64,000 bases of DNA, taken from NCBI GenBank assembly GCA_015143295.1, contig CM026566.1, positions 9,845,072 to 9,909,071 of the forward strand, given 5' to 3'. Positions 8,171 through 60,962 of the stretch are shown piece after piece. The position numbers and the translations under genes were made by a program. The stretch is from Tetracentron sinense. Its lineage: Eukaryota; Streptophyta; Magnoliopsida; Trochodendrales; Trochodendraceae. The stretch's first letter is position 1; every line of letters starts with the position of its first letter. A model generated the notes under the pieces. It did not search any database. It saw only the letters and a list, made by a program, of their open reading frames with translations, and was not told the DNA's origin.

Positions 8171-8359
8171 ACCGATCGATTTGTGGTCAGGACCGAGCGA
8201 TCGGTTGCCTACCGAGCGATCGGTGGATTGACCGAGCTCTTGGTAAAAAACAAGCTCTCTAGAAAATTTCTCCATACAAAATTTTCAACCAGTCGATAAC
8301 CTCCGATCGATCGGTTGTGGACCGATCGATCGCTACAATGGACCAAGCGATCATTGGTC
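8171..8359. promoter_or_regulatory. CpG-rich palindrome array in Tekay-O U3
   Basis: About eight exact or degenerate copies of ACCGATCGATCGGT with irregular 5-45 bp spacing. A spacer of CTCTCT, a ccatacaaaa block and cagtcgata near 8255-8310 is shared with SIRE-1 (25888 on) and Tekay-1 (10052 on). Confidence 0.75.
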
Positions 8360-8507
8360 TGCAGGTCCAAACTGTTTTGCTCATATCTTTTGACTCGTTC
8401 TTCGGATTTTAATGATTCAACTTGCGTTGGGTTCGTACTTCGAAAAGGAACATTTCTAACAATTTGAAATTTTCAATTTCTTCTTTATTTATTAATTATA
8501 CTACATT

Positions 8508-8512: not shown

Positions 8513-8970
8513 TGTCGCGACCCAAAATACCCCCTAGGAGTTAGGGATACTTTGACTCGTGACCGCCATACCATACCTCCAGTATGATACATAAGGCACA
8601 CGTGGAAACCTGTCAGAGTACCTGAATATACATAGCGGAAACGAAATACAATGCACAGCGGAAAATAAAATACTAAACATAGCGGAAGCAAAAAGAATAC
8701 TCCTATAACTTGGCTCAAGTAAGAACCAACAAGTATACATGTGTGAGAAACCCAAAAGTGGAGTGGACAAACCCCACACTCACATAACGAAAGACACAAG
8801 TTCTAAGTCGGTCGATCAACAGAAATCGAAGTCACGACTCCTATCTAAAGCACCATCATCATGATAGTGATCCATGGAAGGCTCCGGGTCACGGTACTCT
8901 TCCTCGACCCAAGGTTCTTCGCCACACAAATCGAATGGAACCCGAGCACCTGCCGATCATAACAATATCG

Positions 8971-8991
8971 ACTGAGCATGGAATACTCAGT
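8971..8991. repeat. Conserved inverted repeat in Tekay-1 3' LTR
   Basis: ACTGAG and CTCAGT arms around a 9-base loop. The equivalent site is present in every Tekay LTR in the window that covers this part. A CGGCAG/GT splice-donor-like site follows about 20 bases downstream in element orientation. Confidence 0.7.
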
Positions 8992-9901
8992 GTATACAAA
9001 CTAAGAACAATAAAGCGGTTAGGCATGGAGCATACAAGACATGGAGAATGAAATCCGAACAATCCTTAAAGCATGGAAACCGTGAAAACATATGTGAGAT
9101 AATATTCGAAACCAAAACTGTAACCGTGTGAGTCAATCGATAATCATAGCCTTATGAGTTCTTGTGAGTTCATGGAGTTACTTAGAGTCATTATGATCCG
9201 TAGAGACATAGAGCATAGAGCAATACCGTAGAGCATTTCCATAGAGCATAACCTTAGAGATCTTAGAGCATTTCATTGTGATCCGTGGAGCTTGTGAGAC
9301 GATCTTAGAGCATTATCATAGAGTTTTCTTGTGAGCATGGTATGATCCTTAGAGCTTGTGAAACGATCTTAGAGAAATCATAGAGTTACTTAGAATCATT
9401 CATTATTCGTCTTTTCGTGAAAACCTTTGTTTGCACCTTAAGAAATCCATGGAAACCATCGGTTCATGCGAGACATGCGAGCATATGCACTTAATAAGAG
9501 AAATCATCATATTTAAGCATAGAATCCCTTAGAGGTATTTTATCAAACACTTAGAGTGCATCATAATAGTAATCCTTCATCCAAGTATATAATCACACCT
9601 TTTCATACATAGAATCAATACATATAGATAGGGCATATATAAGAAGAATCATATCTAGTAACTAGTAGGATTGCAAGATTGTAGTAGAGTGTATCTACCT
9701 TGGTGAAATCAAGGATTTTGATTCCCAAAGGCTTGAACAAGCAATAACCTTGTGTTCTTGGTTGAGAATCACCAAGGGAAGTGGAAGAACCTTGATCTTC
9801 CACAAGCTTGATCAACAAGTAGCTCCTCTCCTTCTTCTCTCTCTCAAAATCTCCTAAGATAGGGCACAAAGGGTTTCTGAAACCCTAAGGCACGAACTCA
9901 G

Positions 9902-9912
9902 CCTATTTATAG
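9902..9912 (-). promoter_or_regulatory. TATA box of Tekay-1 3' LTR
   Basis: The minus strand reads CTATAAATAGG, a classical plant TATA box, about 55 bases downstream of the palindrome array. The 5' LTR copy is at 56860-56870. Confidence 0.75.
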
Positions 9913-9967
9913 GCAAGGGGTGGTGTTTAAAGTCTTAAACACCCTTAATGAAGAAAAACTGCGTATG

Positions 9968-10152
9968 ACCGATCGATCGGTGCTATGGACCGAGCGATCG
10001 GAGGCTTACCGATCGATCGGTGTTATGACCGAGAGATCGGTCAAAAACACACTCTCTGGAATTTTTCCCCATACAAAAAAGTTAACCGTGCGATAGCCAT
10101 CGAGCGATCGGTAGTGGACCGATCGATCGCAGGTAATGACCGAGCGATCGGT
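9968..10152. promoter_or_regulatory. CpG-rich palindrome array in Tekay-1 3' LTR
   Basis: Copies of ACCGATCGATCGGT and one-base variants such as ACCGAGCGATCGGT, separated by a ccatacaaaaa-containing spacer. It lies upstream of the TATA box in element orientation. Perfect units carry three CpG sites. Confidence 0.8.
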
Positions 10153-10374
10153 GCTCTGTTATGTCTGGACTGTTTTGACCATATCTTTTTACTCGCTTGT
10201 CGGATTTCGACGATTCAACTTGCGTTGGATCCGTCTTTCGAAAACGAACATTTCTGACGTTTTGGAATTTCCGATTTCCCCCTTATTATTACTTAGACTA
10301 CGAAAACTTATGAAAACGGCCAATTAGCTATGAAGGTGCTATTTATTAAGGATGAAAAAGTTCGGGGTGCTACA

Positions 10375-12249: not shown

Positions 12250-13799
12250 TCATGTGTGGGGTAAGTTCTGCTCATGCTCCTTCAGCTGACGGGAAGCATA
12301 GGCGACCACCTGTTTATGCTGCATCAAAACACATCCAAGTCCCACTAGTGAAGCATCACTATAGACTTCGAAACCACCGCTCCCAGATGGAACTGTAAGA
12401 ACAGGAACCGAAGTAAGCTTCTTTTTCAACTCCAAGAAACTAGCCTCGCACTTATCACTCCAAGTGAACCTCGTGTTCTTCCGTGTGAGATAGGTAAGCG
12501 GAGCTGCTAAACTTGAAAATCCTTCCACAAACCTTCTGTAATACCCTGCCAACCCGAGGAAACTACGGATCTCGGTGACACTCTTCGGTCTTTCCCAATT
12601 CATCACCGCTTCAATCTTTGCAGGATCAACTGAAATACCTTCAGCAGATACCACGTGTCCAAGAAAAGACACCTTGTTCAGCCAGAACTCGCACTTGCTC
12701 AACTTAGCATACAGACTATGCTCTCGAAGTGTCTGCAAGACCAGACGGAGATCTCTCGTGTGATCCTCCTGTGACTGTGAATACACAAGGATATCATCTA
12801 CGAACACGATCACACATTGATCGAGAGACGATCTGAACACCCGATTCATCAAACCCATGAATGCTGCCGGTGCGTTAGTCAGTCCAAAAGACATGACCAA
12901 AAACTCGTAATGACCGTATCGAGTTCGGAATGCTGTCTTCGGAATGTCCTCTTTCTTGATCTTCAACTGATGATAACCAGATCGAAGGTCAATCTTGGAG
13001 AAAAACTGCGCACCCTTCAATTGGTCAAACAAGTCGTCTATCCGAGGCAATGGATAACGATTCTTGATCGTGACCTTGTTCAATTGCCTGTAATCAATGC
13101 ACAGACGCATTGATCCATCTTTCTTCTTCACGAAGAGAACCGGAGCTCCCCAAGGTGAAACACTTGGCCGGATAAAACCAAGGCCTTGCAATTCTTCTAA
13201 CTGCTCTTTTAACTCCTTAAGCTCAATAGGGGCCATCCTATACGGAGCTCTTGAAATCAGAACTGTGCCTGGAGCTAGCTCAATCGCAAACTCGATTGCA
13301 CGATCGGGAGGCAATCCCGGCAAGGTTTCCGGAAAAACATCCATATACTCACATACCACTGGAATGGGTGTGGAGTCTCGTACTTCTACACCCTTGAGAC
13401 TAAGAGTTGCAAAGCGGGCAATGTCTCTTCTCTGAAGTCCCCTGAAATGAAACGGCTTTAACCCCACGGGTTTAAAATGCACCACCTTCTCGAAACACGC
13501 CACGTGTCCATGGTGAGTTGAGAGCCAATCCATACCTAGGATGATATCGAAATCCCAATCCTGAATTCCCAGAAGGATCAAGTCGACTGGCAACTCGTGC
13601 TGCATGACTTGTACAACACTATCCGGATACACTTTATCTGTCTCAATAGATTTTCCCAATGGAGTCGAAATGGACAACTCCCTAAGTAGCTTGCTTGGCT
13701 CGGACGTAAAGCCTTTGGCAAAGCTTGGCGAAACGAACGAGTGAGTGGATCCTGTGTCTATCAACACTCTTGCCAAACATTCATTTACGAGCAACGAAC
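12250..13799 (-). pseudogene. Tekay-1 pol, protease-RT-RNase H
   Basis: Frame of over 510 codons. The aspartic protease motif DTGSTHSF lies near the start. Reverse transcriptase follows, with [19 protein letters not shown], the catalytic FVDDILVYS and [17 protein letters not shown]. RNase H begins near [15 protein letters not shown]. There is no convincing initiator ATG: the frame opens directly after a 3' splice-like site at 13800, so pol is probably made as a fusion with gag. It ends prematurely near 12266 at an extra base. Residues 12518-13799 are repeated almost exactly at 52470-53751. Confidence 0.9.
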
Positions 13800-13939
13800 C
13801 TGAGAATTTGAATCATCCCAGTTATAACACAACTGTACATATAGATACAAACATCGCAAAACACCACATAGGACATATATATAGATATGAATATATCATG
13901 GCAATATTAGAACTTTGACAAAGACTAGTTCGCGCGTAC
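13800..13939 (-). other. Probable spliceosomal intron between gag and pol (Tekay-1, left copy)
   Basis: On the minus strand the last gag codons run into CAAG|GTACGC, and 140 bases later TTCTCAG|G precedes the protease frame. The segment is AT-rich and T-rich near its 3' end, unlike the flanking coding DNA. Removal leaves a phase-1 split glycine codon and one continuous gag-pol frame. Equivalent segments occur at 53752-53888, 34349-34494 and 41694-41826. Confidence 0.7.
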
Positions 13940-14438
13940 CTTGCACAACATCATCAGATGCCTGTGCGTCTCTATCAGTCATGGCAAAGACTCTGCCCTG
14001 GTTTGCCTGACGAGGCTGCTGGGTAGGCTGCAAGGATCTAGAGGCCTGAGATGAAGACCCCTGAAGTGAATTCTGCCTGCCTGGAGGCCGAACTCCCTGT
14101 GATCCAGACTGTGACTGCTTGCGCGGGCAATCTCGAATCATATGGCCCACCTCGCCACAGTGGAAGCATCCACCTAACATTCTTCGGCAATCTCCAGTCT
14201 TATGCCGACGACCACATACGGCGCACTCCTCAAATGTCTGCGATGCGGAGGAAGCCGGAGGCATAACCCTCGTAGCTTGCGATGCCGTAGGACGCGGTGC
14301 CTGAGGCGCAAAAGAAGGTCTCTGAGCCGACATCGGCTGGGAGAACTGGTACGGTGCAGTCCTAGTCCTTTTCTCTGAAGAACTACTCGACTGACCCCGA
14401 GACATGCTCTTCCCGAAGCCACTGTCTCTTCTTCTCAC
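13940..14438 (-). pseudogene. Tekay-1 gag, C-terminal part, cut by N gap
   Basis: Encodes the C-terminal third of gag: a Pro/Gln/Ser-rich stretch, then a cysteine/histidine knuckle (CAVCGRRHKTGDC), a classical CCHC zinc knuckle (CFHCGEVGHMIRDC) that binds genomic RNA, and a Gln/Ser-rich tail ending in DDVVQ before the intron. The 5' part is lost in the gap but is present in the other copy (53889-55104). Without splicing, this frame gains a short unrelated tail ending at 13896. Confidence 0.85.
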
Positions 14439-14496
14439 NNNNNNNNNNNNNNNNNNNNNNNNNNNNNNNNNNNNNNNNNNNNNNNNNNNNNNNNNN
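14439..14496. other. Assembly gap (58 N)
   Basis: A run of N. Left of it is Tekay-1 gag; right of it is SIRE-1 post-pol sequence. The two sides share no element. Confidence 1.
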
Positions 14497-15860: not shown

Positions 15861-15922
15861 TTTTATAACCCTGTTCACGAAAGACCGATCGATCGGTCCA
15901 TAACAACCGAGCGATCGATGGT
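15861..15922 (-). promoter_or_regulatory. Promoter-like module before the SIRE-1 post-pol region
   Basis: On the minus strand, one degenerate and one perfect copy of ACCGATCGATCGGT (15884-15922) are followed about 15-20 bases later by TTATAAAA (15861-15868). This is the LTR promoter arrangement in miniature. SIRE-2 has a degenerate counterpart at 50519-50575. Confidence 0.5.
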
Positions 15923-18126: not shown

Positions 18127-18337
18127 TGTAGCACCCCGGACTTTTTCATCTTTAATGAATGGCACTCTCGTAGCTAATTGGCCGTTTCATAGTGTAATTA
18201 ATAAATAAGGGAGAAATCAAAAATTCTGAAATGTTAGAAATGTGCGTTTTTGAGAGACGAATCCAACGCAAGTTGAATCGTCGAAATCCGACGAGCGAGT
18301 CAAAAGATATGGTCAAAACAGTCCAGACATACAGAGA

Positions 18338-18508
18338 ACCGATCGCTCGGTCCAGTCAGCGATCGATCGGTCCAAAACCGATCGATCGGTAGCTATCGCA
18401 CGGTCGAACTTTTGTATGGGAAAATTGATTTTTGACCGAGATCTCGGTCAATCAACCGATCGCTCGGTAGGCAACCGATCGATCGGTCATTAACACCGAT
18501 CGCTCGGT
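18338..18508. promoter_or_regulatory. CpG-rich palindrome array in sLTR-a
   Basis: About seven copies of ACCGATCGATCGGT or near variants, including a GACCGAGATCTCGGTC palindrome, split by the cttttgtatgggaaaa spacer that other arrays share. A TTTATAAG TATA-like box follows about 60 bases downstream. Confidence 0.8.
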
Positions 18509-19639
18509 CTTCGCGTTTTTGCAGAAATTTCAGTAAGGGCTTTTTCGTCATTTGGGCATTTCACCCTTGCTTTATAAGTCTTGCACGAGCCTAAGGGTTT
18601 CATAAACCCTTAGGGCAGATATTTGAGAGAGAGTGGGAGAGGAGAAAGGGGTTCTAACCTAGGGTTTCAACTTGAGAGTGAATCAAGGGTTTAAACACCC
18701 AAGATCATCCCAAAAAGGGCGTGGATTCATCAAGTCCAACCTCAAACTCGTGTGGCATTCCCATTCCAAGCTAGGGCAGCGATCCTACGGCATTTTGAAA
18801 GGGGTTTCTTCCCCAAATCAAGCCTTCTTCAAGTAAGGGTTCTTCCCTACCATTTGAGGTTCGATTTCAAGGTTTCTTCAAGGTCAAGCCTTGATTTCAA
18901 GGTTAATACACTCTACTAACTTCATTAGTGATAACCTTGATTTTTCTTCCTCAAATATGATGATTTTATATGTTGTCGTCCCTTTTTATTGAGTTGTGAT
19001 GAAATCCCTATAATAAATAAGATAAATGGATAAAGGTGTGGGAATGTGTGAATGGATGGTGGATTGTGGCGAATGGGTGCCATGTGGGGTGATGTATGTA
19101 ATGGGATGGATAATGGTGGAAGGGCGTTTTCAACATAATGAACATACCTTTGTGATGGATGAAAAACATGCACTAAGCAACTTAAATGAAAAGGCTATAA
19201 TAGTGATGCTTACCAAGTGTTTGAGAAAATGTTTAAATGACGATTTGAATGAGTGAACTTGAATTATAAAAGCATGCATTGAATTATTCTTTCTAAAATG
19301 CCTATCTTGATCAAATGTGCTACATGTCATTTACATTTCCATATGCTCATATTAAGAATTGAAATGCTATGCTCATGTGACCATCATACTCAAGTATGTC
19401 CTCATGCCTACCACAATTTCTACACACACGCACGCATGCTTGCATGAACTGGGTTTATTTCACGAGTATTAGTGCATGAGAAATAAAACGAGAAACAAGC
19501 ATATGTCAAGGAGGTTGGTAGCCCAGGGATGTGCGGGTGCTAGCCTCTGGCTCACAAGTTAAACGAACATGAATATCAAGGGTAGGGCATATCCCTAGGA
19601 TATGTCATACCTGGCTCACAAGAAAACACGACGAGCAAG

Positions 19640-19955
19640 GATCAAGAAACATGGAAGGGTGTTAGTGTACTAAGACCAGGTATGGGCACTAACATCTGTT
19701 CCCCAACACGCATGAAAGTATGCTAGTGTACTAAGACCAGGTACGGGCACTAGTGTATGTTTCCAAGACAAGCATGAAAGGATGTTAATGTACTAAGACC
19801 AGGTACGGGCATTGACATCTGTTTCCAACAAGTATGAGAGGATACTAGTATACTAAGACCAGGTACGGGTACTAGTATCTATCTCCAAGCGAGAATCAAG
19901 AAATATGGAAGGGTGATGATGTACTAAGACCAGGTACGGGCATTGTCATCTGTTC
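19640..19955. repeat. Minisatellite in sLTR-a leader (about 61 bp x 5)
   Basis: The core TACTAAGACCAGGTACGGGC starts at about 19668, 19729, 19791, 19851 and 19922. Spacing is 60-71 bp with diverged spacers. Confidence 0.85.
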
Positions 19956-20294
19956 CCAGGCGAACAAGAAAACTCACGAGTATGTCAACAAGAACATACG
20001 CATAATACTCACTCACGAGACAAGAACCGGGCAAGAACCTAGTACGTTCGTCCAGTTCGTAGTTCGGGTACTAGCTAAACCAGAACAAAACAAGACAGGT
20101 GTGTTTTCCACGATACGAGAACAAGTCATGACTTTTGGATACGAATTTACAATGCATAAGTTGATGTTCATGATTTACTTACATGGTTATGTTGTTTTAG
20201 CTTCCGCGCTCTGAATTGGTATCTCTTGGTGACTGTATCATGTATTACATGTTATGCTATTGTTATTACTATTGTTAGTTAGTAGCTTGTACTC

Positions 20295-20315
20295 GCTGAG
20301 TATTCCATGCTCAGC
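20295..20315. repeat. Conserved inverted repeat in sLTR-a
   Basis: GCTGAG and CTCAGC arms around a 9-base loop, followed by CGGCAG/GTAC about 17 bases downstream. Same site in all Tekay LTRs here. Confidence 0.75.
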
Positions 20316-20720
20316 CGTACTTTTATGTCGGCAGGTACATTATGCAGCATATGAACTCTTGCCCCTTGGATCGAGGTAGCTCGGGGTGAGCAGGAGATTC
20401 TTCGGATGGTTACCTAGATATTAGGAGACGTGGCGTATGGCCAATGGTTGGGATGAGCGAGAGAGAGAGAGACATGTATTTTGGGATTTCCTTGGGGACT
20501 TTTCGTGTGAGCTTGAGTGGGTGACTCAAGCATTTGCACTCTTGTGATTATTGTATTCTATCCAGCTATTAATGATGTGGACACTTGGAATTACATTTAT
20601 GTTAAAGGAAATTTTAGTCTCTCTATTTTCGCATGCCTTGTTATGCTCTTGCCGGTTGACTAAGGATAGGCCGCGTCGCCAAGGTATCCTAACTCCTAGG
20701 GACTATTTTGGGGCGTGACA

Positions 20721-25065: not shown

Positions 25066-25749
25066 ATTGAAATTTATCCAGATCAATGATCTCTAAGACC
25101 TAGAGGGGGGTGAATAGGTCTATCTAATAATTTCTAACCAATTTTAATTTTTCAATTAATATGTTTAGAAATCAATGAACAAGTCAATCAGACAATCCAC
25201 ACAAATCAAACACAGAAGATTTTTTACGTGGAAAACCCTAACGGGAATAAAAACCACGGGACCTTGTCCAGCAATAAACTTCACAATGAAAAGATATCAA
25301 GTACAAGACAAGACCTTACCAAAACAGAAACGACGTTCCTAGGTATAGACTCTTACTCTTGATTTCCACGAACCAGCAGGTTCGATCTCCGCCGTAGCAG
25401 CTTCGGTTCCACACCGACCAAATCTTTTCAAGCTACTTCAAAACCACGATCACACACGATCGATCTCCTTCCACGAAGGCTCCGGATCAAACACCGGACA
25501 CACACACACAAGGTGAAGGGTTGTGAATCAATTTAAGAAATTTCAAACCCTAGAGGGATCTGATACTGATCTGAGATCACACAATGCAAGATCAAAGGTT
25601 TAGATCTATACTTGCATTCTCTAGGATCTAAGAAAGAGGAGGGATCAACAAAGATCTAATAAAAGCAATAAGAAAAACCCTAGAAGAGTATCTCAGACCT
25701 CTACTCTTTCAAAAATATCAAAGACACGAATTAGGTCTCCAAAAGGTTG

Positions 25750-25757
25750 TTTATATA
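25750..25757 (-). promoter_or_regulatory. TATA box of SIRE-1 LTR
   Basis: The minus strand reads CCTATATAAACAA, about 46 bases downstream of the palindrome array. The same context is at 43499-43507 in SIRE-2. Confidence 0.7.
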
Positions 25758-25802
25758 GGGTTTAAAAAAGAATCCAGAAAAAGAAAAATTCTTTTTACGG
25801 GG

Positions 25803-25987
25803 ACCGATCGATCGGTGCTCACTACCGATCGCTCGGTTCAAAACGGATTGATCGGTTCTAATGACCGATCGCTCGGATATAAATCATCTCTCTGGAAAAT
25901 TTCCCCATACAAAAATTTGGTCCAGTCGATAGCCACCGATCGCTCGGTAGGCCACCGATCGATCGGTCCCAATACCGAGCGATCGGT
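25803..25987. promoter_or_regulatory. CpG-rich palindrome array in SIRE-1 LTR
   Basis: Seven or so copies of ACCGATCGATCGGT and variants. The CTCTCT-led spacer with ccatacaaaa and ccagtcgata (25888-25935) aligns with the spacers in the Tekay-O and Tekay-1 arrays although SIRE is a copia element. Confidence 0.8.
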
Positions 25988-26291
25988 TGAGACAGAATTT
26001 TGTTCAAACCATATGTCTTTTCATGTTTATTTGATTCAACTAAGATCAAATAACTTTGTTAGGTTTAAAACTATCCTCCTAGGTATGTTTAGAGTTATCT
26101 AAGCCAAAACCAACCTAGGTAGGGGTCTCTAAGTCCATTACCTGTCTAGATCCAGAGTCGAAGCTTTTTCTTCTCTTTCTTCAATCTTCTTTAAGCTTTA
26201 GCTCTTCTCTTCTGACAAGTTGAACATGACTCGACTCACATGACCTATCTAATGATCACGGAATTTGCCAACACCTATTTAGGGATTTACA

Positions 26292-26534: not shown

Positions 26535-26938
26535 TGTAACGCCCCAAAATACCACCTAGGAGTTAGGCTATATTTGGGCTCGTTACCTACCATACAATCA
26601 TCCTGCGGAAGCATATAAGGCAAGCTAAATAGTGAACTGAAAATTTTCTTTAATAACTTAACTGTATTCCAAGTACAACTATTTGCAATAAATGAATAGA
26701 AACTGAAACATGTACAAGCAATCCTTCACCTGGGTTACAAACTCAAGTGATACAAAATCCCCAGACATAAAACCCAAAATACATGTCTCTCTCACTCTCT
26801 GCCCAACCATGGGGTCACGTGTCAAACCCCCAACATCTGGATGACCACCCGAGCAATCTCCTGTTCCCCATGAGTCGCCTCGTTTCAAAGAAAGGAGTAC
26901 ATGTATCGTATAGCGTACCTGCCGACATAACATGTACG

Positions 26939-26959
26939 GCTGAGCATGGAATACTCAGC
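26939..26959. repeat. Conserved inverted repeat in sLTR-b
   Basis: GCTGAG and CTCAGC arms around a 9-base loop. On the minus strand a CGGCAG/GTACGC donor-like site follows. Confidence 0.72.
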
Positions 26960-27109
26960 GAGCAAAATCTACTAGCTAACAATGCTATTATAATCACAAT
27001 ATTTAATACAGTGCGTAAAAGAATACAAATCACCAAATCCATGCTTAAAACCCGTCATGAAAAACCTTTCATAAAACTTGTTCTTTTCATGGAAAACAAA
27101 CCCTCTCAT

Positions 27110-27310
27110 GTATGCTTATGAGTTCTTATGAATGCTTGTGAGCCTCATGTTTTCTTATGAATTCTTGTGAGCTTAGAGTTCTTGTGAGCTTGTGAGTACT
27201 TGTGAGCTTATGAGCTTCTTGTGAGCTTATGAGTACTTGTGAGCTTATGAGTACTTGTGAGCTTCTTGTGAGCTTATGATCCTTGTGAGCTTGTTCTCCT
27301 TGGAGACATA
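27110..27310. repeat. Degenerate minisatellite in sLTR-b leader
   Basis: Repeated cttgtgagcttatgagta words, about 10-20 bp units of variable order, in the part of the LTR where other Tekay families have their own minisatellite. Confidence 0.7.
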
Positions 27311-28574
27311 TGCAAGATCTTAGACTTGTGAGTTTCTTATGAGTTCTTGAAAAGCCTTGCGAGACTTATGATCCGTGGAGTTTATGTGAGATCTTAGACT
27401 TGATCCTTGTGAGCATGAAGTAACCGATCTTAGAATGCCAACCCAAAGTTTGGCTTAGTCAACTCTTATGCATCTATGATTCTTGCTTATGAATGCCTTT
27501 GAAAACCCTTCTTATGATTTCTTGAAATTCATGCTTATGAGAAAACCACGGTCGTGCAATACTTATCGTGCGTGGAGTGCTTGTGAGCAGTATAACATCT
27601 ATGTGGAAAGCTTTAACTAATTAAACATGTTCATGCAAGGCATAATGATCATTATAGTATACTTGAATGCCTTAATTAACTCATATGGTTCATACAAGGT
27701 ATATTAGCATCATAGCATACTTAGACAATTCTAGAATGTAGAACATTTCATTCATTGCATCACATCATAACAATCATGGCTTCTAAACCTAATTCATCAT
27801 ATCACACTTAAAATCATGGTTTATTGGAGGATAATAATACTTACACACTAGCATAACAACATTCATCCCTTTCATTGGAAAACCCCAAAATCATAAACCC
27901 TTATTTACTTGTTTGATCATGTTCTAGTTCACCCAAAATTCCCACACTTAACATTTGTATCATAGTATACTTGAAACCATGTTTCATTTAGAGATACTAT
28001 CATTTACTTACAAGTATAGCCATGTTCATTCTTGTTATTGAAAAACCCCCAATTTATAAACTACTATTTGTCTATTTGATCATAATGTAGAAAAACCCCC
28101 AATTTATAAACCCCTTTTTATCATCTTTTCATATTTTGCACAATACCAAAGTTAGATAGGTAGAATCACTAACATTCCATTCAAACATACTTTCATTCAC
28201 ATTTAGATCTTGGCATCCTAGTAAAGCTAAATCACCCATTGGGTCATCTTTTCCCATCCATGTATGATAACAAAGCTAGATAGTAGTTTTACTAACCTCT
28301 TAGAATCAATTTCTAGGTTGAAGGAAACCCCTTGAGAAAAATCCTCACTTGATTGGAATGATCGAAGCTTGATTTGGAGAAGATCAAACCCTTGTTGAAG
28401 CTTTTCTTGATTCCAAAACAAACCCTATTTGGAATCCTCAAGATCCTCTTCTTCTCTTTCTAGGAACTCTCCTTGGTTTAGGGTAAACCAAAAACCCTCC
28501 TAAAGTCTTCTATTTATAGTGTAAGGGGTGAAAAACCCCAAAAAAATCGCATCCAAGACAGTAAAATCCCGCAT

Positions 28575-28740
28575 CTACGATCGTTCGTAGCGATTTACGA
28601 TCGATCGTAGCCTTCTACGATCGATCGTAGCTTTCTACGATCAATCGTAGTTTCACCCGAGAGTTTCCAGCATTTCTGGAGATTTACAAACGATCGTAGC
28701 AACTCTACGATCGTTCGTAGGGTCCCTACGAGCGATCGCA
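28575..28740. promoter_or_regulatory. Variant palindrome array in sLTR-b (CTACGATCGATCGTAG type)
   Basis: About seven copies of the 16-bp palindrome CTACGATCGATCGTAG or variants, at the same place as the ACCGATCGATCGGT arrays in other LTRs. The GATCGATC core is shared but the arms differ. Confidence 0.75.
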
Positions 28741-30104
28741 ACTTTTGCAGAAAGTTTTCAGCATTTTTGCGTTTTCGTATTTTGGCAATAACTTTTGACT
28801 CGCTCGTCCGTTTTTGACGATTCAACTTGCGTTGGATTTGTCTTTCGAAGGAGAACAACTTTGGTGTTTTACACAATTTCTAGTTCTCTATATTTCTTAG
28901 ACCAGTTTGCCCCTAAAGCTGACTGATCCGAAACTGGGTTTCGTCAGTCCAAATTTTAAACCGACCCGACTTCAGAAATCGGTCTTTTGACCTAACACCA
29001 ACTCAAAACCAAGACAAGTGATCAACATGAACCCCGAAGAGGGTTAAATTACCTTTCCAAAAATCCAAGAATCTCTTGATTCCGATGAGCCTTGTGAACA
29101 GTAGGGCTATTTAAAGTCAAGGGTATGCTAAGGCATTCCCATTCTTGACACTTAGAACATAAGGAGTGTTTCACACTCCTTTCCTTCGGTTCCAAAACCA
29201 TACTAACACCTCATGACTCATTAATCCATAGGTTTTTAACACACCTAGGTGATCATGGGGCACACCCCAACATGCATGAGAGGCCCCGGTCTCTTTATGC
29301 CTCGCGTAACAACACTATTCACTCGCAACTCATTAACACTTAGGGTACCTTATACCCATGTTTTTACCCACTTAGAGTATGTCATACTCTTATTTTTTCA
29401 TCCAAACACCCAACAATAAACACTTAAACTAATTTGACTACTCTTATCATGCCCCTTAACCAAGTCACATAAATGGCCCTCAGCCTTTACAAGACTTGTG
29501 CCCATGGTGCTATTCAAAACATTGTGAAATGGTTTCCTGGTGGTTCTACATTCACACTTATGGTATTTTATACCCTAAATACTTGAGTATTATTATACTC
29601 TTGTTTTGAGGCTCAACATACACATATAAAGTCTTCACTTCACTTCCCCCAATATCAAGAACACATGGTAGGTCTTAAGCCTTTTAATGCATTGTACACT
29701 AACCCTATTCACCTTCAACCCTTTAAGCCCTTAGGGTATTTTACACACCCTACTTCTATTCTCATAACTCACGACCATAGGTTCTAAAACCAAACTGAGG
29801 TAACCTATTGGGCACAACCCATATGCATGGGAGGCCCCGGCCGCCACAAATCCCTTGAATCAACATTATTCATACCACTATACATTTAATGCTTTGAGTA
29901 TGGTTTTATACTCTTTGCATGTTTTCTCAAAACACCTTACACTTCTTGATTCTAACATGAAACTCACATCGCACTTAGGCTATGAGGGAAACCCTCACTC
30001 TCATTAACCAAACCCAACTTATAATAAGGGCATTTGGCCCTTACAATACTAGTGTCCTCGGCACAATTCACTTGAACAGTGAACCAAATTTCCGGGGTTC
30101 TACA

Positions 30105-30427
30105 AGTTATAGTTCCTCTTTTCCCTTTATTTCTTTTGATTTTCTTTCATTTACACATGTGCTATGAGATGGATGGTTGTGAATGGTGAATGGAGATGGA
30201 ATGGGCGATTGGATGCCAAGGGTTGTGTTGTGATGATTAAAATGGGGAGGGCATTGTATCCATAACAAACACACCTTTATGATGTGAGTAAACTCACCTA
30301 GAAAAGCATGATTTAGGTTTAAATGAATAATGAATAATGAACACACCATGTTTGATGAAATACCAAGGTGAATTAAATGAGTTGTAAATTAGGAAATACA
30401 TGCCTAATAAATTATGAATATTGATGA
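30105..30427 (+). repeat. Tekay-H LTR, part 2
   Basis: Begins with the AGTTA duplication and continues the Tekay-H LTR, parallel to Tekay-2 LTR 31306-31640. It ends at GATGA (30423-30427), the left target duplication of Tekay-2. Confidence 0.85.
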
Positions 30428-30642
30428 TGTAGAGCCCTAGACTTTTTCATGCTTAATACATGACACTTTCGTTGTCATCTTGCCTTTTTAAGAGGTATGA
30501 ATAATAAATGAGGAAGAATTTGGAAATTTCAAAATGTCAGAATTGTTCCTCTTCGAAGTACGAACACAACGCAAGTTGAATCGTCAAAATCGGACGAACG
30601 AGTCAAAAGATATGGCCAAAACAGTCTGTACCTATAGGAAAT

Positions 30643-30970
30643 TGTAGCACAGACAACGTACTCTGATAACGTATACTGTGTGCATCCGTTGTACAACTCA
30701 CCACGGGCACGTTGTGCAGCTCACCATGGGTACGTTGTACAACTCACCACGGGCACGCTGTACATGAGACAACGGACTACGGGCTTAGCACTATGCACGA
30801 CACAACGTGACAACGGGTTCGTCACCCTTGACAACGGACAACGAGTCGGCACTATTCACGGCACCACGAGTTGGCACTATTCACGGCACCACGAGTTGCA
30901 CTATTCACAGCACCACGAGTTGGCACTATTCACAGCACAATGTGTTCAGCACTATTCACGGTCCTCGCGT
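30643..30970. promoter_or_regulatory. Family-specific repeat array in Tekay-2 5' LTR
   Basis: Irregular repeats: acaactcaccacgggcacg units, then 24-25 bp units containing CACGAGTTGGCACTATTCAC. It takes the place of the GATCGATC palindrome arrays of other Tekay LTRs, between the conserved acgcaagttgaatcg box and the cagtaagggtattacgg box. The 3' LTR has one extra unit. Confidence 0.75.
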
Positions 30971-31890
30971 CATTGCTGAAATCCCAGTAAGGGTATTACG
31001 GTCTTTTGGTCAGTTCACTCTTACCTTAAGAGTTTAACCCGAGCCTTTAGGGCTTCATTCGACACTTAGAGAGTTTGATAGAATAGGAGAAAGGGGAGAA
31101 GGCGATTCCAACCTAGGGTTTCCATTTTGGAGAGAAATCAAAGGGGTTTTGAAACCCTAGATCAACCTCAAGCCCGTTTTCTTCAAGATTTCGGTTCAGG
31201 CATTGTGGAGCTCGCGATCCAAGCTAGGGCAGCAGCTACACAGTCATTTGGAAAGAGGGTTTCTTCCTCACCTCTTCAAGGTCGGTGCTTCTTACTACCC
31301 TCCTAGTTATAGTTCCTCTTTCCCCTTCTTTTCTTTTGATTTTCTTTCATTTACACATGTGTCATGAGATGGATGAATGGTGAATGGAGAATGGTAAATG
31401 TTGAATGGTGAATGGAGATGGAATGGGCGATTGGATGCCAATGGTTGTGTGTGATGAACAAATGGGGAAAGGCATTGTTTCAATAATGAACATACATGTA
31501 TGATTTGAGAAAAACCCATTTAGAAAAGCATGTTGTAGGGTAAATCCATAATGAACACACCATGTTTGATGAAATGCCAAGGTGAATAAAGTGAGCTGCA
31601 AATTAGTAAATTCATGCCTAATAAATTATGAATATCGCTAGGGCCCATGATAGTGTGTTTCCTGCTTTCCCTAAATGCTATGAATATTGAATTGCTCAAT
31701 CTTTAATGTTATGTGTGTTGTGAAATTTCCCAAATGTCATGTTTAAATTTAAATGCAAGTATGTACACGGTTCCCACGAGCACGGCATGCATGACATGAG
31801 TTATCGAGGTTTCCAAGAAGATGGATAGAGGTGGGGCATATCCTACGATATGTTTTACCTCGCTTTTCACAAGTAGACAAGAACCAACAT

Positions 31891-32050
31891 TCCACGAGGG
31901 GTCTCCCCTCACTCACAAGTGCATATCATAAAGAAGGGTCTCCCTTCCCTCGTAAGTACATACATATCATAAAGAAGGGTCTCCCTTCCCTCGCAAGTGC
32001 ATTGCATAAAGAAGGGTCTCCCTTCCCTCTCAAGGCATCTCACAAGTGCA
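31891..32050. repeat. Minisatellite in Tekay-2 5' LTR leader
   Basis: Three to four units of about 35-42 bp containing AAGAAGGGTCTCCCTTCC. Also present in the 3' LTR (about 39409-39565) and in Tekay-H (about 40552-40705). Confidence 0.85.
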
Positions 32051-32342
32051 TCTCACAAGTTACATGATCACAAGCAAGCATGCATGACATGACACGACAC
32101 GACATACAAGAATCAAGCAAGATAGACAAGACAAGCTTTCAAGTACGAAAAGATAATTCAAGTCAAGTCAAGTGCACGATGTTTTCAAGAGGATTTATCG
32201 GTTTTCTACGAATTACAAGCATGATTATAAACTGTTTTACTTCCTTGTATGATATGAATTGTTTCCGCTTGACATATATGAATTGCTCCTGATTATGTAT
32301 TGCTATTTCTATGCTATAATTGTTGTTTAGTATTTAGTACCC

Positions 32343-32363
32343 GCTGAGTATTCCATGCTCAGC
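32343..32363. repeat. Conserved inverted repeat in Tekay-2 5' LTR
   Basis: GCTGAG and CTCAGC arms around a 9-base loop, 21 bases before the GT of the donor-like site at 32384. The 3' LTR copy (39856-39876) has one arm base changed. Confidence 0.75.
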
Positions 32364-32788
32364 CGTACTTCTTATGTCGGCAGGTTCTGAGGGAGCCGCT
32401 GCTCCATTTGATGTTTGTGCTCCGGGTCCATGGGTGGAAGAGGAGTACGTCGAGGAACCTTTGGAGGAACCTCCAGTAGAGGGTTACCATTAGGTGGTGG
32501 TAGATTCTGAGTGGATTAGCTGTGGGTGAGATGAGAGTCAGATTTATGTATTTTGGCGGGCATGTCCGCACTTTCTTTTGGTTACTTTTTGTATAAACTT
32601 GGATTTGCGTATGTATATACATAGAGGTTTGGTAGTCTTCCGCTGTGCTATGTTAGAGTATGTTTCCGCTGTTTATTCCCCTATTGTATATGCTCTGTGG
32701 GTTTTGCAGGTTAGTTGTCAAGCAAGTCATGATTAGTCATCCAAAGTTCACTCTAACTCCTAGGGTGGGTTTTGGGTCGCGACAGAAG

Positions 32789-37908: not shown

Positions 37909-37921
37909 ATAAGGGGGGGAG
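37909..37921 (+). promoter_or_regulatory. Tekay-2 polypurine tract
   Basis: ATAAGGGGGGGAGGA, directly before the 3' LTR start at 37924. Confidence 0.9.
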
Positions 37922-37923
37922 GA

Positions 37924-40297
37924 TGTATAGCCCCAGACTTTTTCATGCTTAATACATGACACTTTCATTGTCATCTGCCTTTTTAAGAGGTATGATTAAT
38001 AAATGAGGAAAAATTTGGGAATTTCGAAATGTCAGAATTGTTCCTCTTCGAAGTACGAACACAACGCAAGTTGAATCGTCAAAATCGGACGAACGAGTCA
38101 AAAGATATGGCCAAAACAGTCTGTACCTGTAGGAAATCGTAGCACAGACAACGTACTCTGATAACGTATACTGTGTGCATCCGTTGTACAACTCACCACG
38201 GGCACGTTGTGCAGCTCACCACGGGTACGTTGTACAACTCACCACGGGCACGCTGTACATGAGACAACGGACTACGGGCTCAGCACTATGCACAACACAA
38301 CGTGACAATGGGTTCGTCACCCTTGACAATGGACAACGAGTCGGCACTATTCACGGCACCACGAGTTGGCACTATTCACGGCACCACGAGTTGGCACTAT
38401 TCACGGCACCACGAGTTGCACTATTCACAGCACCACGAGTTGGCACTATTCACAGCACAATGTGTTCAGCACTATTCACGGTCCTCGCGTCATTGCTGAA
38501 ATCCCAGTAAGGGTATTACGGTCTTTTGGTCAGTTCACTCTTACCCTAAGAGTTTAACTCGAGCCTTTAGGGCTTCATTCGACACTTAGAGAGTTTGAGA
38601 GAATAGGAGAAAGGGGAGAAGGCGATTCCAACCTAGGGTTTCCATTTTGGAGAGAAATCAAAGGGGTTTTGAAACCCTAGATCAACCTCAAGCCCGTTTT
38701 CTTCAAGATTTCGGTTCAGGCATTGTGGAGCTCGCGATCCAAGCTAGGGCAGCAGCTACACAGTCATTTGGAAAGAGGGTTTCTTCCTCACCTCTTCAAG
38801 GTCGGTGCTTCTTACTACCCTCCTAGTTATAGTTCCTTTTTCCCCTTCTTTTCTTTTGATTTTCTTTCATTTACACATGTGTCATGAGATGGATGAATGG
38901 TGAATGGAGAATGGTAAATGGTTAATGGTGAATGGAGATGGAATGGGCGATTGGTTGCCAATGGTTGTGTGATGAACAAATGGGGAAGGGCATTGTTTCA
39001 ATAATGAACATACATGTATGATTTGAGAAAAACCCATTTAGAAAAGCATGTTGTAGGGTAAATCCATAATGAACACACCATGTTTGATGAAATGCCAAGG
39101 TGAATAAAGTGAGCTGCAAATTAGTAAATTCATGCCTAATAAATTCTGAATATCGCTAGGGCCCATGATAGTGTGTTTCCTGCTTTCCCTAAATGCTATG
39201 AATATTGAATTGCTCAATCTTTAATGTTATGTGTGTTGTGAAATTTCCCAAATGTCATGTTTAAATTTAAATGCAAGTATGTACACGGTTCCCACGAGCA
39301 CGGCATGCATGACATGAGTTATCGAGGTTTCCAAGAAGATGGATAGAGGTGGGGCATATCCTACGATATGTTTTACCTCGCTTTTCACAAGTAGACAAGA
39401 ACCAACATTCCACGAGGGGTCTCCCCTCACTCACAAGTGCATATCATAAAGAAGGGTCTCCCTGCCCTCGTAAGTACATACATATCATAAAGAAGGGTCT
39501 CCCTTCCCTCGCAAGTGCATTGCATAAAGAAGGGTCTCCCTTCCCTCTCAAGGCATCTCACAAGTGCATCTCACAAGTTACATGATCACAAGCAAGCATG
39601 CATGACATGACACGACATACAAGAATCAAGCAAGATAGACAAGACAAGCTTTCAAGTACGAAAAGATAATTCAAGTCAAGTCAAGTGCACGATGTTTTCA
39701 AGAGGATTTATCGGTTTTCTACGAATTACAAGCATGATTATAAACTGTTTTACTTCCTTGTATGATATGAATTGTTTCCGCTTGACATATATGAATTGCT
39801 CCTGATTATGTATTGCCATTTCCATGCTATAATTGTTGTTTAGTATTTAGTACCCGCTGAGTATTCCATGCTCAGTCGTACTTCTTATGTCGGCAGGTTC
39901 TGAGGGAGCCGCTGCTCCATTTGATGTTTGTGCTCCGGGTCCATGGGTGGAAGAGGAGTACGTCGAGGAACCTTTGGAGGAACCTCCAGTAGAGGGTTAC
40001 CATTAGGTGGTGGTAGATTCTGAGTGGATTAGCTGTGGGTGAGATGAGAGTCAGATTTATGTATTTTGGCGGGCATGTCCGCACTTTCTTTTGGTTACTT
40101 TTTGTATAAACTTGGATTTGCGTATGTATATACATAAAGGTTTGGTAGTCTTCCGCTGTGCTATGTTAGAGTATGTTTCCGCTATTTATTCCTCTATTGT
40201 ATATGCTCTGTGGGTTTTGCAGGTTAGTTGTCAAGCAAGTCATGATTAGTCGTCCAAAGTTCACTCTAACTCCTAGGGTGGGTTTTGGGTCGCGACA
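37924..40297 (+). repeat. Tekay-2 3' LTR (2374 bp)
   Basis: TGTATAGCCCCAG...GGGTCGCGACA. Nearly identical to the 5' LTR; it is longer mainly through one extra CACGAGTTG unit near 38390. The array is at about 38140-38490 and the minisatellite at about 39409-39565. Confidence 0.95.
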
Positions 40298-41483
40298 GAT
40301 AAGGCCTATGATAGTGTGTTTCTTGCTTTCCCTAAATGATATGAATATTACATTGCTCAATCATTGATGTTATATGTGTTGTGAAATTACCCAAATATCA
40401 TATTTAAATTTAAATGCAAGTATGTACACGGTTCCCACGAGCACGGCATGCATGACATGATTTATCGAGGTTTTCAAGAACATGGTTAGAGGTGGGACAT
40501 ATCCTACGATATGTTTTACCTCACTTTTCACAAGAAAACAAGAACCAACATTCCACGAGGGGTCTCCCCTCACTCACAAGTGCATATCATGAAGAAGGGC
40601 CTCCCTTCCCTCGCAAGTACATACATATCATGAAGAAGGGTCTCCCTTCCCTCGCAAGTGCATTGCATAAAGAAGGGTCTCCCTTCCCTCTCAAGGCATC
40701 TCTCAAGCGCACCTCACAAGGATATCTCACAAGTGTATCTCGAAAGTTACATGATCACAAGCAAGCACGCATGACATGCATGACATGACACGTACGACAC
40801 GCTCGACAAGATCAAGTAAGACAAACACGACAAGCTTTCAAGTACGAAAAGATATTTCAAGCCAAGTCAAGTGCACGATGTTTTCAGGAGGTTTTATCGG
40901 CTTTCTACGAAATACAAGCATGATTATAAATTGCTTTACTTCCTTGTATGATATGAATTGTTTCCGTCTAACATATATGAATTGCTCCTGATTTATGTAT
41001 TGCCATTTTTATGCTATGACTATTGGATAGTATTTGGTACCCGCTGAGTATTCCATTCTTAGCCGTACTTCTTATGTCGGCAGGTTTTGGGGGAGTTGCT
41101 GCTCCATTTGATGTTTGTGCTCCTGGTCCATGGGTGGAAGAGGAGTACGTCGAGGAGCCTTTGGAGGAACCTCCCGTAGAGGGTTATCAATAGGTGGTGT
41201 TAGATTCTGAGTGGATTAGCTGTGGGTGAGATGAGAGATATACATTCATGTATTTTGGCGGGTCTGTCCGCACTTTCTTTTGGATTCCTTTTGTGTAAAC
41301 TTGGATTCGTATATACATAGAGGTTTGTTTAGACTTCCGCTGTGTTATGTTAGAGTATGTTTCCGCTGTTTATATCCTCTATTGTATATGCTCTGTGGGT
41401 TTTTGCAGGTTGGTTGTCAAGCAAGTCATGGTTAGTCGTCCAAAGTTCACTCTAATTCCTAGGGTGGGTTTTGGGTCACGACA
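40298..41483 (+). repeat. Tekay-H LTR, part 3
   Basis: Begins with the right duplication GATAA and continues the Tekay-H LTR to its end GGGTCACGACA. It is parallel to 31640-32784 of Tekay-2 with more substitutions. The inverted repeat at 41043 is degraded. Total Tekay-H present is about 1.75 kb of an expected 2.36 kb; the first 600 bases lie beyond SIRE-1 and are not seen. Confidence 0.88.
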
Positions 41484-42926: not shown

Positions 42927-43269
42927 TGTAAATCCAGAAATAGGTGTTGGCAAATTCCATGATCAATAGAGAGGACATGTGTGTTGTGTCTTGTTCAATT
43001 TGTCGGAAGAGTTAAAGTTTCGAGAAGATTGAAGGTATTGAAGAAAAAGCTTCTACTCCGGATCTAGACAGGTAATGGACTTAGAGACCCCTACCCCAGA
43101 AATGAATTAACAAATATGAAGCAAGACCTACTCCCTCCCATCCCTTTGGATTTACTTAGATAACTCTAAACATACCTAGGAGGATAGTTTTAAGCCTAAC
43201 AAAGTCTTTTGGTCTTATTTGAATCAAACAAAAATAAAAGAAAATTGTTTTGGCTAAAATTCTGTCTCA

Positions 43270-43453
43270 ACCGATCGCTCGGTGTTAAGACCGATCGATC
43301 GGTGGCCTACCGAGCAATCGGTGGCTATCGACTCGTCAAAACCTTTGTATGGGGTATTTTTCCAGAGAGGTAATTTTTAACCGATCTCTTGGTGAAAATA
43401 GTGATCGATCGGTTTTGGACCGAGCGATCGGTTATAAGCACCGATCGATCGGT
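43270..43453. promoter_or_regulatory. CpG-rich palindrome array in SIRE-2 LTR
   Basis: Seven or so copies of ACCGATCGATCGGT and variants, with the ctttgtatgggg...ccagagagg spacer in the middle. The TATA box follows about 46 bases after the last unit. Confidence 0.8.
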
Positions 43454-43498
43454 CCTCGTAAACATTATTTTTATTTTTCTGGACTCTTTTCTAAACCC

Positions 43499-43507
43499 TA
43501 TATAAAC
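43499..43507 (+). promoter_or_regulatory. TATA box of SIRE-2 LTR
   Basis: CCCTATATAAACAAA context, shared with SIRE-1. Confidence 0.7.
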
Positions 43508-44188
43508 AAATTTTTGGAGACCTAATTCGTATCTTTGTTTGTTTTTGAAAGAGTAGAGGTCTGAGAAACCCTTCTAGGGCTTTTTCCATTGTTCCTCATA
43601 GATCTTTAGTGATCCCTCCTTTTTCAATCATCCTAGAGAATGCAAGTATAGATCTATACTTTTGTTCTTGCATGTGTGATCTCAGATCTGTATGAGATCC
43701 CTCTAGGGTTTGAAGCTTTCTAAATTGATTCACAACCCTACACTTTGTGTGTGTGTCCGGTGTATGATCCGGAGCCTTCGTGGAAGGAGATCGATCGTGT
43801 GTGATCGTGGTATTGAAGTAGCTTGAGAAGATTTGGTCGGTCAGGAACCGAAGCTGCTACAGCGGAGATCGAACCTGCTGGTTTGTGGAAATCAAGAGTA
43901 AGATTCTGTACCTAGGAACGTCGAGTCCGTTTTGGGTAAGGTCTTGTCTTGTACTTGAATTCTTCTTATAGTGAAGTTTGTTGCTGGACGAGGTCCCGTG
44001 GTTTTTTCCCGTAAGGGTTTTCCACGTAAAAATCTGCTGTGTTTGATTTATGTGGATTTTTTGTGTGAATTGTTTATTGATTTCTAAACTAATTATTTGA
44101 AAAATTAAAAAATTGGTTAGAAGTTCTTAGATAGACCTATTCACCCCCCCTCTAGGTCATAGAGATCATTTATCAGAGTAATTTCAAT

Positions 44189-50518: not shown

Positions 50519-50575
50519 ACCGAGCGCCGGTGTTAAGAACAGATCGAGCGGTCTTTTCGGGAACAGGTTATAAAA
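50519..50575 (+). promoter_or_regulatory. Promoter-like module before the SIRE-2 post-pol region
   Basis: Two degenerate palindrome units (ACCGAGCGCCGGT and a GATCGAGCGGT unit), then TTATAAAA at 50568-50575. It aligns with SIRE-1 15861-15922, where one unit is perfect. Confidence 0.45.
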
Positions 50576-52369: not shown

Positions 52370-52469
52370 NNNNNNNNNNNNNNNNNNNNNNNNNNNNNNN
52401 NNNNNNNNNNNNNNNNNNNNNNNNNNNNNNNNNNNNNNNNNNNNNNNNNNNNNNNNNNNNNNNNNNNNN
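52370..52469. other. Assembly gap (100 N)
   Basis: Exactly 100 N, a conventional unknown-size gap. Left is SIRE-2; right is Tekay-1 pol. Confidence 1.
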
Positions 52470-55471: not shown

Positions 55472-57332
55472 TGTCGCGACCCAAAATACCCCCTAGGAGT
55501 TAGGGATACTTTGACTCGTGACCGCCATACCATACCTCCAGTATGATACATAAGGCACACGTGGAAACCTGTCAGAGTACCTGAATATACATAGCGGAAA
55601 CGAAATACAATGCACAGCGGAAAATAAAATACTAAACATAGCGGAAGCAAAAGAATACTCCTATAACTTGGCTCAAGTAAGAACCAACAAGTATACATGT
55701 GTGAGAAACCCAAAAGTGGAGTGGACAAACCCCACACTCACATAACGAAAGACACAAGTTCTAAGTCGGTCGATCAACAGAAATCGAAGTCACGACTCCT
55801 ATCTAAAGCACCATCATCATGATAGTGATCCATGGAAGGCTCCGGGTCACGGTACTCTTCCTCGACCCAAGGTTCTTCGCCACACAAATCGAATGGAACC
55901 CGAGCACCTGCCGATCATAACAATATCGACTGAGCATGGAATACTCAGTGTATACAAACTAAGAACAATAAAGCGGTTAGGCATGGAGCATACAAGACAT
56001 GGAGAATGAAATCCGAACAATCCTTAAAGCATGGAAACCGTGAAAACATATGTGAGATAATATTCGAAACCAAAACTGTAACCGTGTGAGTCAATCGATA
56101 ATCATAGCCTTATGAGTTCTTGTGAGTTCATGGAGTTACTTAGAGTCATTATGATCCGTAGAGACATAGAGCATAGAGCAATACCGTAGAGCATTTCCAT
56201 AGAGCATAACCTTAGAGATCTTAGAGCATTTCATTGTGATCCGTGGAGCTTGTGAGACGATCTTAGAGCATTATCATAGAGTTTTCTTGTGAGCATGGTA
56301 TGATCCTTAGAGCTTGTGAAACGATCTTAGAGAAATCATAGAGTTACTTAGAATCATTCATTATTCGTCTTTTCGTGAAAACCTTTGTTTGCACCTTAAG
56401 AAATCCATGGAAACCATCGGTTCATGCGAGACATGCGAGCATATGCACTTAATAAGAGAAATCATCATATTTAAGCATAGAATCCCTTAGAGGTATTTTA
56501 TCAAACACTTAGAGTGCATCATAATAGTAATCCTTCATCCAAGTATATAATCACACCTTTTCATACATAGAATCAATACATATAGATAGGGCATATATAA
56601 GAAGAATCATATCTAGTAACTAGTAGGATTGCAAGATTGTAGTAGAGTGTATCTACCTTGGTGAAATCAAGGATTTTGATTCCCAAAGGCTTGAACAAGC
56701 AATAACCTTGTGTTCTTGGTTGAGAATCACCAAGGGAAGTGGAAGAACCTTGATCTTCCACAAGCTTGATCAACAAGTAGCTCCTCTCCTTCTTCTCTCT
56801 CTCAAAATCTCCTAAGATAGGGCACAAAGGGTTTCTGAAACCCTAAGGCACGAACTCAGCCTATTTATAGGCAAGGGGTGGTGTTTAAAGTCTTAAACAC
56901 CCTTAATGAAGAAAAACTGCGTATGACCGATCGATCGGTGCTATGGACCGAGCGATCGGAGGCTTACCGATCGATCGGTGTTATGACCGAGAGATCGGTC
57001 AAAAACACACTCTCTGGAATTTTTCCCCATACAAAAAAGTTAACCGTGCGATAGCCATCGAGCGATCGGTAGTGGACCGATCGATCGCAGGTAATGACCG
57101 AGCGATCGGTGCTCTGTTATGTCTGGACTGTTTTGACCATATCTTTTTACTCGCTTGTCGGATTTCGACGATTCAACTTGCGTTGGATCCGTCTTTCGAA
57201 AACGAACATTTCTGACGTTTTGGAATTTCCGATTTCCCCCTTATTATTACTTAGACTACGAAAACTTATGAAAACGGCCAATTAGCTATGAAGGTGCTAT
57301 TTATTAAGGATGAAAAAGTTCGGGGTGCTACA
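55472..57332 (-). repeat. Tekay-1 5' LTR (1861 bp)
   Basis: Matches 8513-10374 apart from one A in a homopolymer. The palindrome array is at 56926-57110, the TATA box at 56860-56870, the inverted repeat at 55929-55949 and the donor-like CGGCAG/GTG at 55907. Its outer end is followed by AAAGG. Confidence 0.95.
56926..57110. promoter_or_regulatory. CpG-rich palindrome array in Tekay-1 5' LTR
   Basis: Same units and order as 9968-10152. As the 5' LTR copy, this is the one placed to drive transcription of Tekay-1. Confidence 0.8.
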
Positions 57333-60930: not shown

Positions 60931-60962
60931 CAAATTTGACTTTATTCATCTTGATGGCATCG

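Follow-up and report, generated by a model that had tools for sequence, protein, structure and literature searches.

A seven-box palindromic U3 module common to Ty1/copia and Tekay-type Ty3/gypsy long terminal repeats in nested retrotransposon DNA of Tetracentron sinense

The 64,000-nucleotide stretch of the Tetracentron sinense genome analysed here (contig CM026566.1 of assembly GCA_015143295.1, forward-strand positions 9,845,072 to 9,909,071; hereafter the window) is nested plant retrotransposon DNA, in which the same cluster of 14-bp palindromic boxes recurs in the U3 (unique 3′) part of long terminal repeats (LTRs) of both Ty1/copia and Ty3/gypsy elements. The elements concerned are two copia copies, S1 and S2, and the Tekay-type elements A to E:

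25068-26291, minus strand: 5′ LTR of the copia copy S1
42927-44186, plus strand: 5′ LTR of the copia copy S2
8513-10374 and 55472-57332: LTRs of Tekay-type A, with the 5-bp duplication AAAGG on both sides
30423-32786 and 37919-40299: LTRs of Tekay-type B, a two-LTR element
18127-20720: solo LTR of Tekay-type C, duplication TAGTC, within the reverse transcriptase region of S1
up to 8512, resuming at 57338-57392: LTR fragment of Tekay-type D, split by element A
26535-30104: solo LTR of Tekay-type E, duplication AGTTA, inside a B-like LTR

S1 and S2 align over 5.6 kb at 89% identity and carry Ty1/copia domains (gag_pre-integrs, rve and RVT_2 in S1 pol; copia gag, gag_pre-integrs, rve and RVT_2 in S2); a relaxed self-comparison of the window found no second LTR copy, and hence no 3′ LTR, for either of them. 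RVT_1, integrase and Chromo domains, that is, a Ty3/gypsy pol with chromodomain, were matched in A and B, while C, D and E are assigned to the Tekay type by LTR similarity to A and B only. The lineage names SIRE and Tekay are labels of an earlier, sequence-only reading of this stretch; superfamily membership is read here from domains and LTR similarity. Among the 120 of 2607 matches listed for the S2 gag, the named relatives near the top are from Nepenthes, Olea, Vitis and Fraxinus (49-65% identity), and in a viral contig collection eight stretches fitted the gag peptide pattern, none of which was confirmed as a relative. The insertion site of C in S1 has a matching empty site in S2, and that of E a matching empty site in B. 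Runs of N interrupt the window at 14439-14496 and 52370-52469, and the gap-free stretch between them (14497-52369) holds S1, S2, B, C and E. Directly behind the second LTR of B, a third, partial copy of that LTR (40300-41483, 88% identical) stands in direct repeat.

Matches to the palindrome ACCGATCGATCGGT with at most two mismatches number 41 in the window, compared with a mean of 0.11 in 100 shuffles. They form the following seven-box modules, each arranged as three boxes plus four:

25803..25987, minus strand: module of S1, in the 5′ LTR; TATA-like box from 25757 downwards
43270..43453, plus strand: module of S2, in the 5′ LTR; TATA-like box from 43499
9968..10152, minus strand: module of Tekay A, in LTR 8513-10374; TATA-like box from 9911 downwards
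56926..57110, minus strand: module of the other Tekay A LTR (55472-57332), not independent
18338..18508, plus strand: module of Tekay C, in the solo LTR, with a 12-bp deletion in the long spacer
8171..8359, minus strand: module of Tekay D, in the LTR fragment, with the outer boxes and one inner box degenerate

All six of these arrays, four in Tekay and two in SIRE LTRs, had been named in the sequence-only reading, and all are present. As cases they come to five, since the two LTRs of Tekay A are 99.95% identical and share the AAAGG duplication outside them, so that they count as one insertion and their treatment as two separate cases was rejected. The box intervals are 20-21/19/71/20-21/19/21 in all five independent modules, with 58 for 71 in C, owing to the 12-bp deletion and one further base. 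The placement of the arrays upstream of a TATA box, also claimed earlier, holds as well: a TATA-like box begins 45 bp past the last box in S1 and S2, 56 bp in A, 64 bp in C and 63 bp in D. The commonest dyad deviations, T-C (14), G-A (5) and G-C (2) in 37 boxes, occur in either half, which suits a symmetric protein site. CpG observed/expected is 1.52-1.99 in the modules (1.79 in both S1 and S2), and the S1 and S2 clusters have a GC content of 0.48-0.51 and a length of only 184-185 bp.

The resemblance extends beyond the boxes into the long spacer (~58 bp), as had been proposed, and it exceeds chance. Local alignment of the six spacer pairs between S1 or S2 and Tekay A, C or D gave scores of 26-59, reached by none of 2000 dinucleotide shuffles in five pairs and by one of 2000 in S2-C; in S1-D, 45 of 57 aligned columns are identical. 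Against a background of 1276 segments of 200 bases taken from the real sequence, in which the best score outside the modules was 32 for the S1 query and 28 for S2, four pairs stand clear (S1-A 47, S1-D 59, S2-A 34, S2-D 47). On the side facing the LTR start the similarity ends sharply. The weaker match said to continue to a gattcaact/ccatat box does not hold up, because the scores of the S1 and S2 upstream flanks against A, C, D and B were reached by 374-979 of 1000 shuffles (220-1000 of 1000 under lenient scoring). Downstream, lenient scores were reached by 439 of 1000 shuffles for S2-D and by 49-462 of 1000 for the other six pairs, those with B included; the strict score of S1-D was reached by 29 of 1000. 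With upstream flanks at chance and one lenient downstream exception, the S1-D pair, the homologous unit measures ~185 bp. The proposal of a promoter module common to both superfamilies is thus well supported by the same box, the same 3 + 4 layout and the same spacer between unmatched upstream flanks.

Conservation within the unit is uneven. Across the aligned five modules, no variation is seen in 70 of 98 columns of the boxes and 31 of 57 of the long spacer, compared with 3 of 29 invariant columns in the short gaps (Fisher P against the short gaps, 3e-9 for the boxes and 6e-5 for the spacer); boxes and spacer have accordingly been held by selection. Short-gap identity is 48-76% within families and falls to 48 of 174 cells (28%, with 22% expected from composition) across superfamilies; being near chance, it makes the split of the module between the superfamilies an old one. 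The module tree sets S1 and S2 apart from A, C and D with support of 100/98, which would fit one old transfer without telling its direction. A statement on that direction was dropped, as the distance comparisons disagree.

Within the Tekay elements, the place of the module in the LTR is occupied by differing sequences:

28575..28741, minus strand: seven-box array of the CTACGATCGATCGTAG type, 3 + 4, in the Tekay E solo LTR
30640..30961, plus strand: slot of Tekay B in LTR 30423-32786, holding 23-bp and 25-bp repeats without boxes
38136..38481, plus strand: corresponding slot of the second Tekay B LTR (37919-40299), with similar content
10170-10240, 18254-18320, 8380-8440, 30560-30620 and 28790-28850: conserved block upstream of the slot

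The Tekay E array has box intervals of 21, 21, 49, 20, 20 and 20 and ends 56 bp before a TATA-like box; its boxes and those of the ACCGATCGATCGGT type have the core CGATCGATCG in common and differ in their arms. Its spacer is not homologous to those of S1, S2, A, C or D in either orientation, whereas its upstream flank matches those of A, C, D and B (scores 71-103, each reached by none of 500 shuffles). The flanks of the box-less Tekay B slots likewise match those of A, C and D, at 73-84% identity upstream and more weakly, at 50-67%, downstream. Judged from these alignments, the U3 slot of Tekay LTRs is swappable. How the Tekay LTRs are related is less settled: the upstream flank of D is 83-84% identical to that of B and 78-80% identical to those of A and C, two of the three inner forks are open once E is added to the Tekay tree, and a nesting of B among the box-bearing Tekays was dropped because the five-row tree cannot be rooted and the downstream tree pairs C with B. 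Just upstream of the slot, a block of ~70 bp (CCAACGCAAGTTGAATCGTC...) is strongly conserved in Tekay A to E despite their differing slots, and is probably a second regulatory element.

Our favoured explanation, to which we assign a probability of roughly 0.65, is that the arrays represent a single homologous U3 enhancer module of the Sirevirus RM-box type, which a Sirevirus lineage (Ty1/copia) and several Tekay-type chromovirus LTRs (Ty3/gypsy) in the same plant have in common through descent. It starts from what can be read directly off the window (the boxes, their layout, the spacer homology, the sharp upstream edge, the constraint and the TATA positions), and proposes that the module would have passed once, long ago, between the copia and gypsy superfamilies. 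The palindromic boxes may serve as sites for a host activator of transcription that is symmetric (dimeric), neighbouring sites at 19-21 bp presumably lying about two helical turns apart; an enhancer for such a factor would be the simplest reading of the module. The earlier account had offered either movement of a promoter module between superfamilies or recruitment of the same host factor under strong selection. The shared module itself stands, but transfer and recruitment of one host factor under selection are not exclusive alternatives, and descent plus constraint is favoured because the boxes (70/98) and the long spacer (31/57) have been kept while the short gaps (3/29) have not.

Several observations weigh against this explanation. 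Only five modules from one window are available, and they disagree on the position of Tekay D, which long-spacer distances place closer to the S copies than to A and C in 78% of bootstraps and whole-module distances place the opposite way in 99.9%. Two spacer pairs fail to stand out from real sequence, S1-C (33) being barely above the best outside window (32) and S2-C (26) below it (28). The downstream edge is less clean in S1-D, where the lenient score of 24 exceeds the shuffle maximum of 23 (0/1000 reach it). High CpG is also met outside the modules, in the upstream flanks of A (1.53) and C (1.39). Searches of the open-licence literature for a plant factor recognizing a CCG-N6-CGG palindrome, with LBD proteins as a lead, gave nothing usable.

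The alternatives differ in what they leave unexplained. If both superfamilies had independently evolved the same boxes and spacer by way of the same host factors, constraint on boxes and spacer alike would be expected, and Tekay E and B indeed show that slots turn over within Tekay. Such convergence would also have to produce a specific spacer of ~58 bp (45/57 in S1-D) together with an exact interval pattern; moreover, the 3 + 4 array of Tekay E has a spacer unrelated to the others, so function seems not to force a shared spacer, and we regard convergence as improbable, if the least improbable of the rivals. The sharpness of the module edge facing the LTR start, as in a captured cassette, would equally suit an origin in a third source, a host promoter or another mobile element from which both superfamilies took the module. 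No copy exists in this window outside the LTRs and the copia linker, however, and scans of viral and prokaryotic contig collections, which contain no plant genomes, returned no match to the double box, nor did the 26-base spacer pattern match in the viral collection; a third source is also an unlikely origin.

Selection on nucleic acid structure, the palindromes being kept for U3 RNA hairpins (as a small-RNA source, for packaging or for another RNA function) or for DNA extrusion, finds a precedent in maize, where palindrome clusters of Sirevirus LTRs are described, in the accessible parts of two papers, as hotspots of small-RNA mapping (PMC5311732, PMC10760457). It also finds some encouragement in the S2 and E arrays, which fold more stably than most versions with randomly flipped boxes (only 13 and 17 of 200 as stable), but the same flips do not favour S1, A, C or D (165-194 of 200 as stable), and in none of the six arrays does the native order of boxes have an advantage over shuffled orders, 55-200 of 200 of which were as stable. 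Of the dyad-pair changes in 37 boxes, 43 are one-sided and 3 are compensated. RNA hairpin selection is accordingly not favoured as the main explanation, and structure as a whole seems to us quite improbable. The remaining alternative, under which misjoined contigs would make copia LTRs appear to carry the array, and which the sequence-only reading had listed, together with confinement of the module to one family genome-wide, as a refutation of its own proposal, is very unlikely indeed. The window does have two N gaps, near which scaffolding is doubtful because the adjoining 12517-14438 repeats 52471-54387 at 98.4%. But no gap interrupts the stretch that holds S1, S2, B, C and E. The single 5.6-kb alignment of S1 and S2 includes the module in both, even though the two copies are inserted at separate places and face opposite ways. 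The insertion of C in S1 is flanked by a target duplication and has its empty counterpart in S2, and E likewise has its duplication and empty site. Both copies of that repeat, each adjoining an N gap, are the same internal stretch of Tekay A within what the AAAGG duplication marks as a single insertion, and it seems doubtful whether the inner contig is correctly placed.

Beyond shared descent of the module, a broader picture can be drawn only tentatively, and we think it rather less probable than its negation: U3 may act as a plug-in enhancer slot, in which whole arrays move between copia and gypsy elements and replace one another within Tekay, the arms of the boxes changing together (ACCGATCGATCGGT versus CTACGATCGATCGTAG around the core CGATCGATCG) as if tracking a shift in the specificity of a single host factor behind the transcription of both superfamilies.

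Elsewhere in the window, 60957-61511 is a tandem array of ~13 units of 43 bp, several of which contain the palindrome AACCGCGCGGTT, again with ACCG...CGGT ends, and it is followed by another tandem array at 61650-62235. A direct repeat of 284 bp (1-284 and 7601-7884, 100% identity) may be the LTR pair of a very young element that the start of the window truncates.

Boxes also occur in the copia copies outside the LTR:

15884..15919, minus strand: box pair in the S1 linker, downstream of pol, 16 bp before the TATA-like GGTTATAAAAC
50519..50552, plus strand: degenerate S2 counterpart, also 16 bp before GGTTATAAAAC

The S1 pair is a candidate internal promoter on the strength of this arrangement. 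The region behind the S1 linker boxes is decayed. S1 and S2 are still alignable past the TATA-like box of the linker (15867-15600 on the minus strand and 50569-50900 on the plus strand), and both keep AAAGGTAA...CTAGGGCATCA, splice-like sequences ~44 bp apart, which is short for a plant intron. The linker pair, the CTACGATCGATCGTAG array at 28575-28741, the box-less Tekay B LTRs and the slot swap were all missing from the earlier survey.

It is the LTR promoter that determines in which tissue, or under which stress, a transposon becomes active. That two unrelated kinds of retrotransposon carry the same box cluster suggests that distant families can acquire promoter parts from one another. If the module does pass between superfamilies without common LTR ancestry, promoter families would have evolutionary histories separate from those of transposon families, and several unrelated elements that fill genomes may be under the control of a single host factor or silencing response.

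Work by Bousios et al. in 2016 reportedly concerned the palindromes of maize Sirevirus LTRs. The copia copies can be compared with Sireviruses by the hallmarks set out in the accessible text of Bousios et al. 2010 (PMC2829016): a CA/ATTGG/TATCAGAGC junction, a polyC integrase signal, and AGGGGGAG octamers in the linker, the last of them 10 bp before the 3′ LTR. The junction between 5′ LTR and internal region is exact in S2 and has one change in S1; a polyC-rich integrase signal lies ~40 bp before the LTR end (CCCCCCTCTAGG in S1, CCCCCCCTCTAGG in S2); and AGGGGGAG octamers occur once in the S1 linker (15964), once in the S2 linker (52273) and a third time in S1 pol (18086), the 3′ LTRs being outside the window. 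RM boxes, as that text presents them, are palindromic and CpG-rich with a CGG-CCG core and number at least eight per element; their cluster forms a CpG island, begins 200-400 bp from the LTR start and closely precedes a TATA box, and further boxes occur downstream of pol and upstream of the envelope gene (PMC2829016). S1 and S2 resemble them in their repeated palindromes, in cluster position (starting 304 bp into the LTR in S1 and 343 bp in S2), in the TATA-like box 45 bp past the last box and in the extra boxes after pol, S1 having seven boxes in the 5′ LTR plus two in the linker and S2 seven in the LTR with a degenerate linker pair. They differ in their core, CCG-N6-CGG rather than CGG-CCG, although Tnd-1 (ACAATCGATTGT), a member of the original RM-box set, is also given there without the CGG-CCG signature (PMC2829016). 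Since they fit RM boxes except in core order, the copia half adds a new sequence variant to a feature already described. The same authors favoured an internal envelope promoter and, in the text available, could not conclusively identify one (PMC2829016); the box pair and TATA-like box after copia pol offer a concrete candidate for it.

The new part is the presence of the same module in chromovirus (Ty3/gypsy) LTRs, the copia half being already known. In the accessible text of PMC2829016, RM boxes are called Sirevirus-specific relative to other Ty1/copia elements, Ty3/gypsy elements lying outside that analysis; unlike that stated specificity, the module here is found in three Tekay-type Ty3/gypsy LTRs. 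Our searches of the open-licence literature turned up no account of Ty3/gypsy LTRs with RM-type boxes or with a shared U3 module. A partial parallel is the maize Sirevirus palindrome CACCGGACNNNGTCCGGTG, which also occurs in Helitrons, while Ty3 elements are reported without a clear structure peak (PMC10760457, in its accessible part). There too one palindrome is found in several kinds of transposon, but its sequence is another, the partners are Helitrons rather than Ty3/gypsy elements, and the portion of that paper available describes no shared multi-box layout or spacer. In the Tnt1 superfamily, as summarized in the accessible text of PMC2829016, the U3 regulatory region differs between relatives within one copia group. 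The turnover among Tekay A/C/D, B and E is of the same kind; by contrast with Tnt1, where change stays in one copia group, the sharing described here crosses superfamilies.
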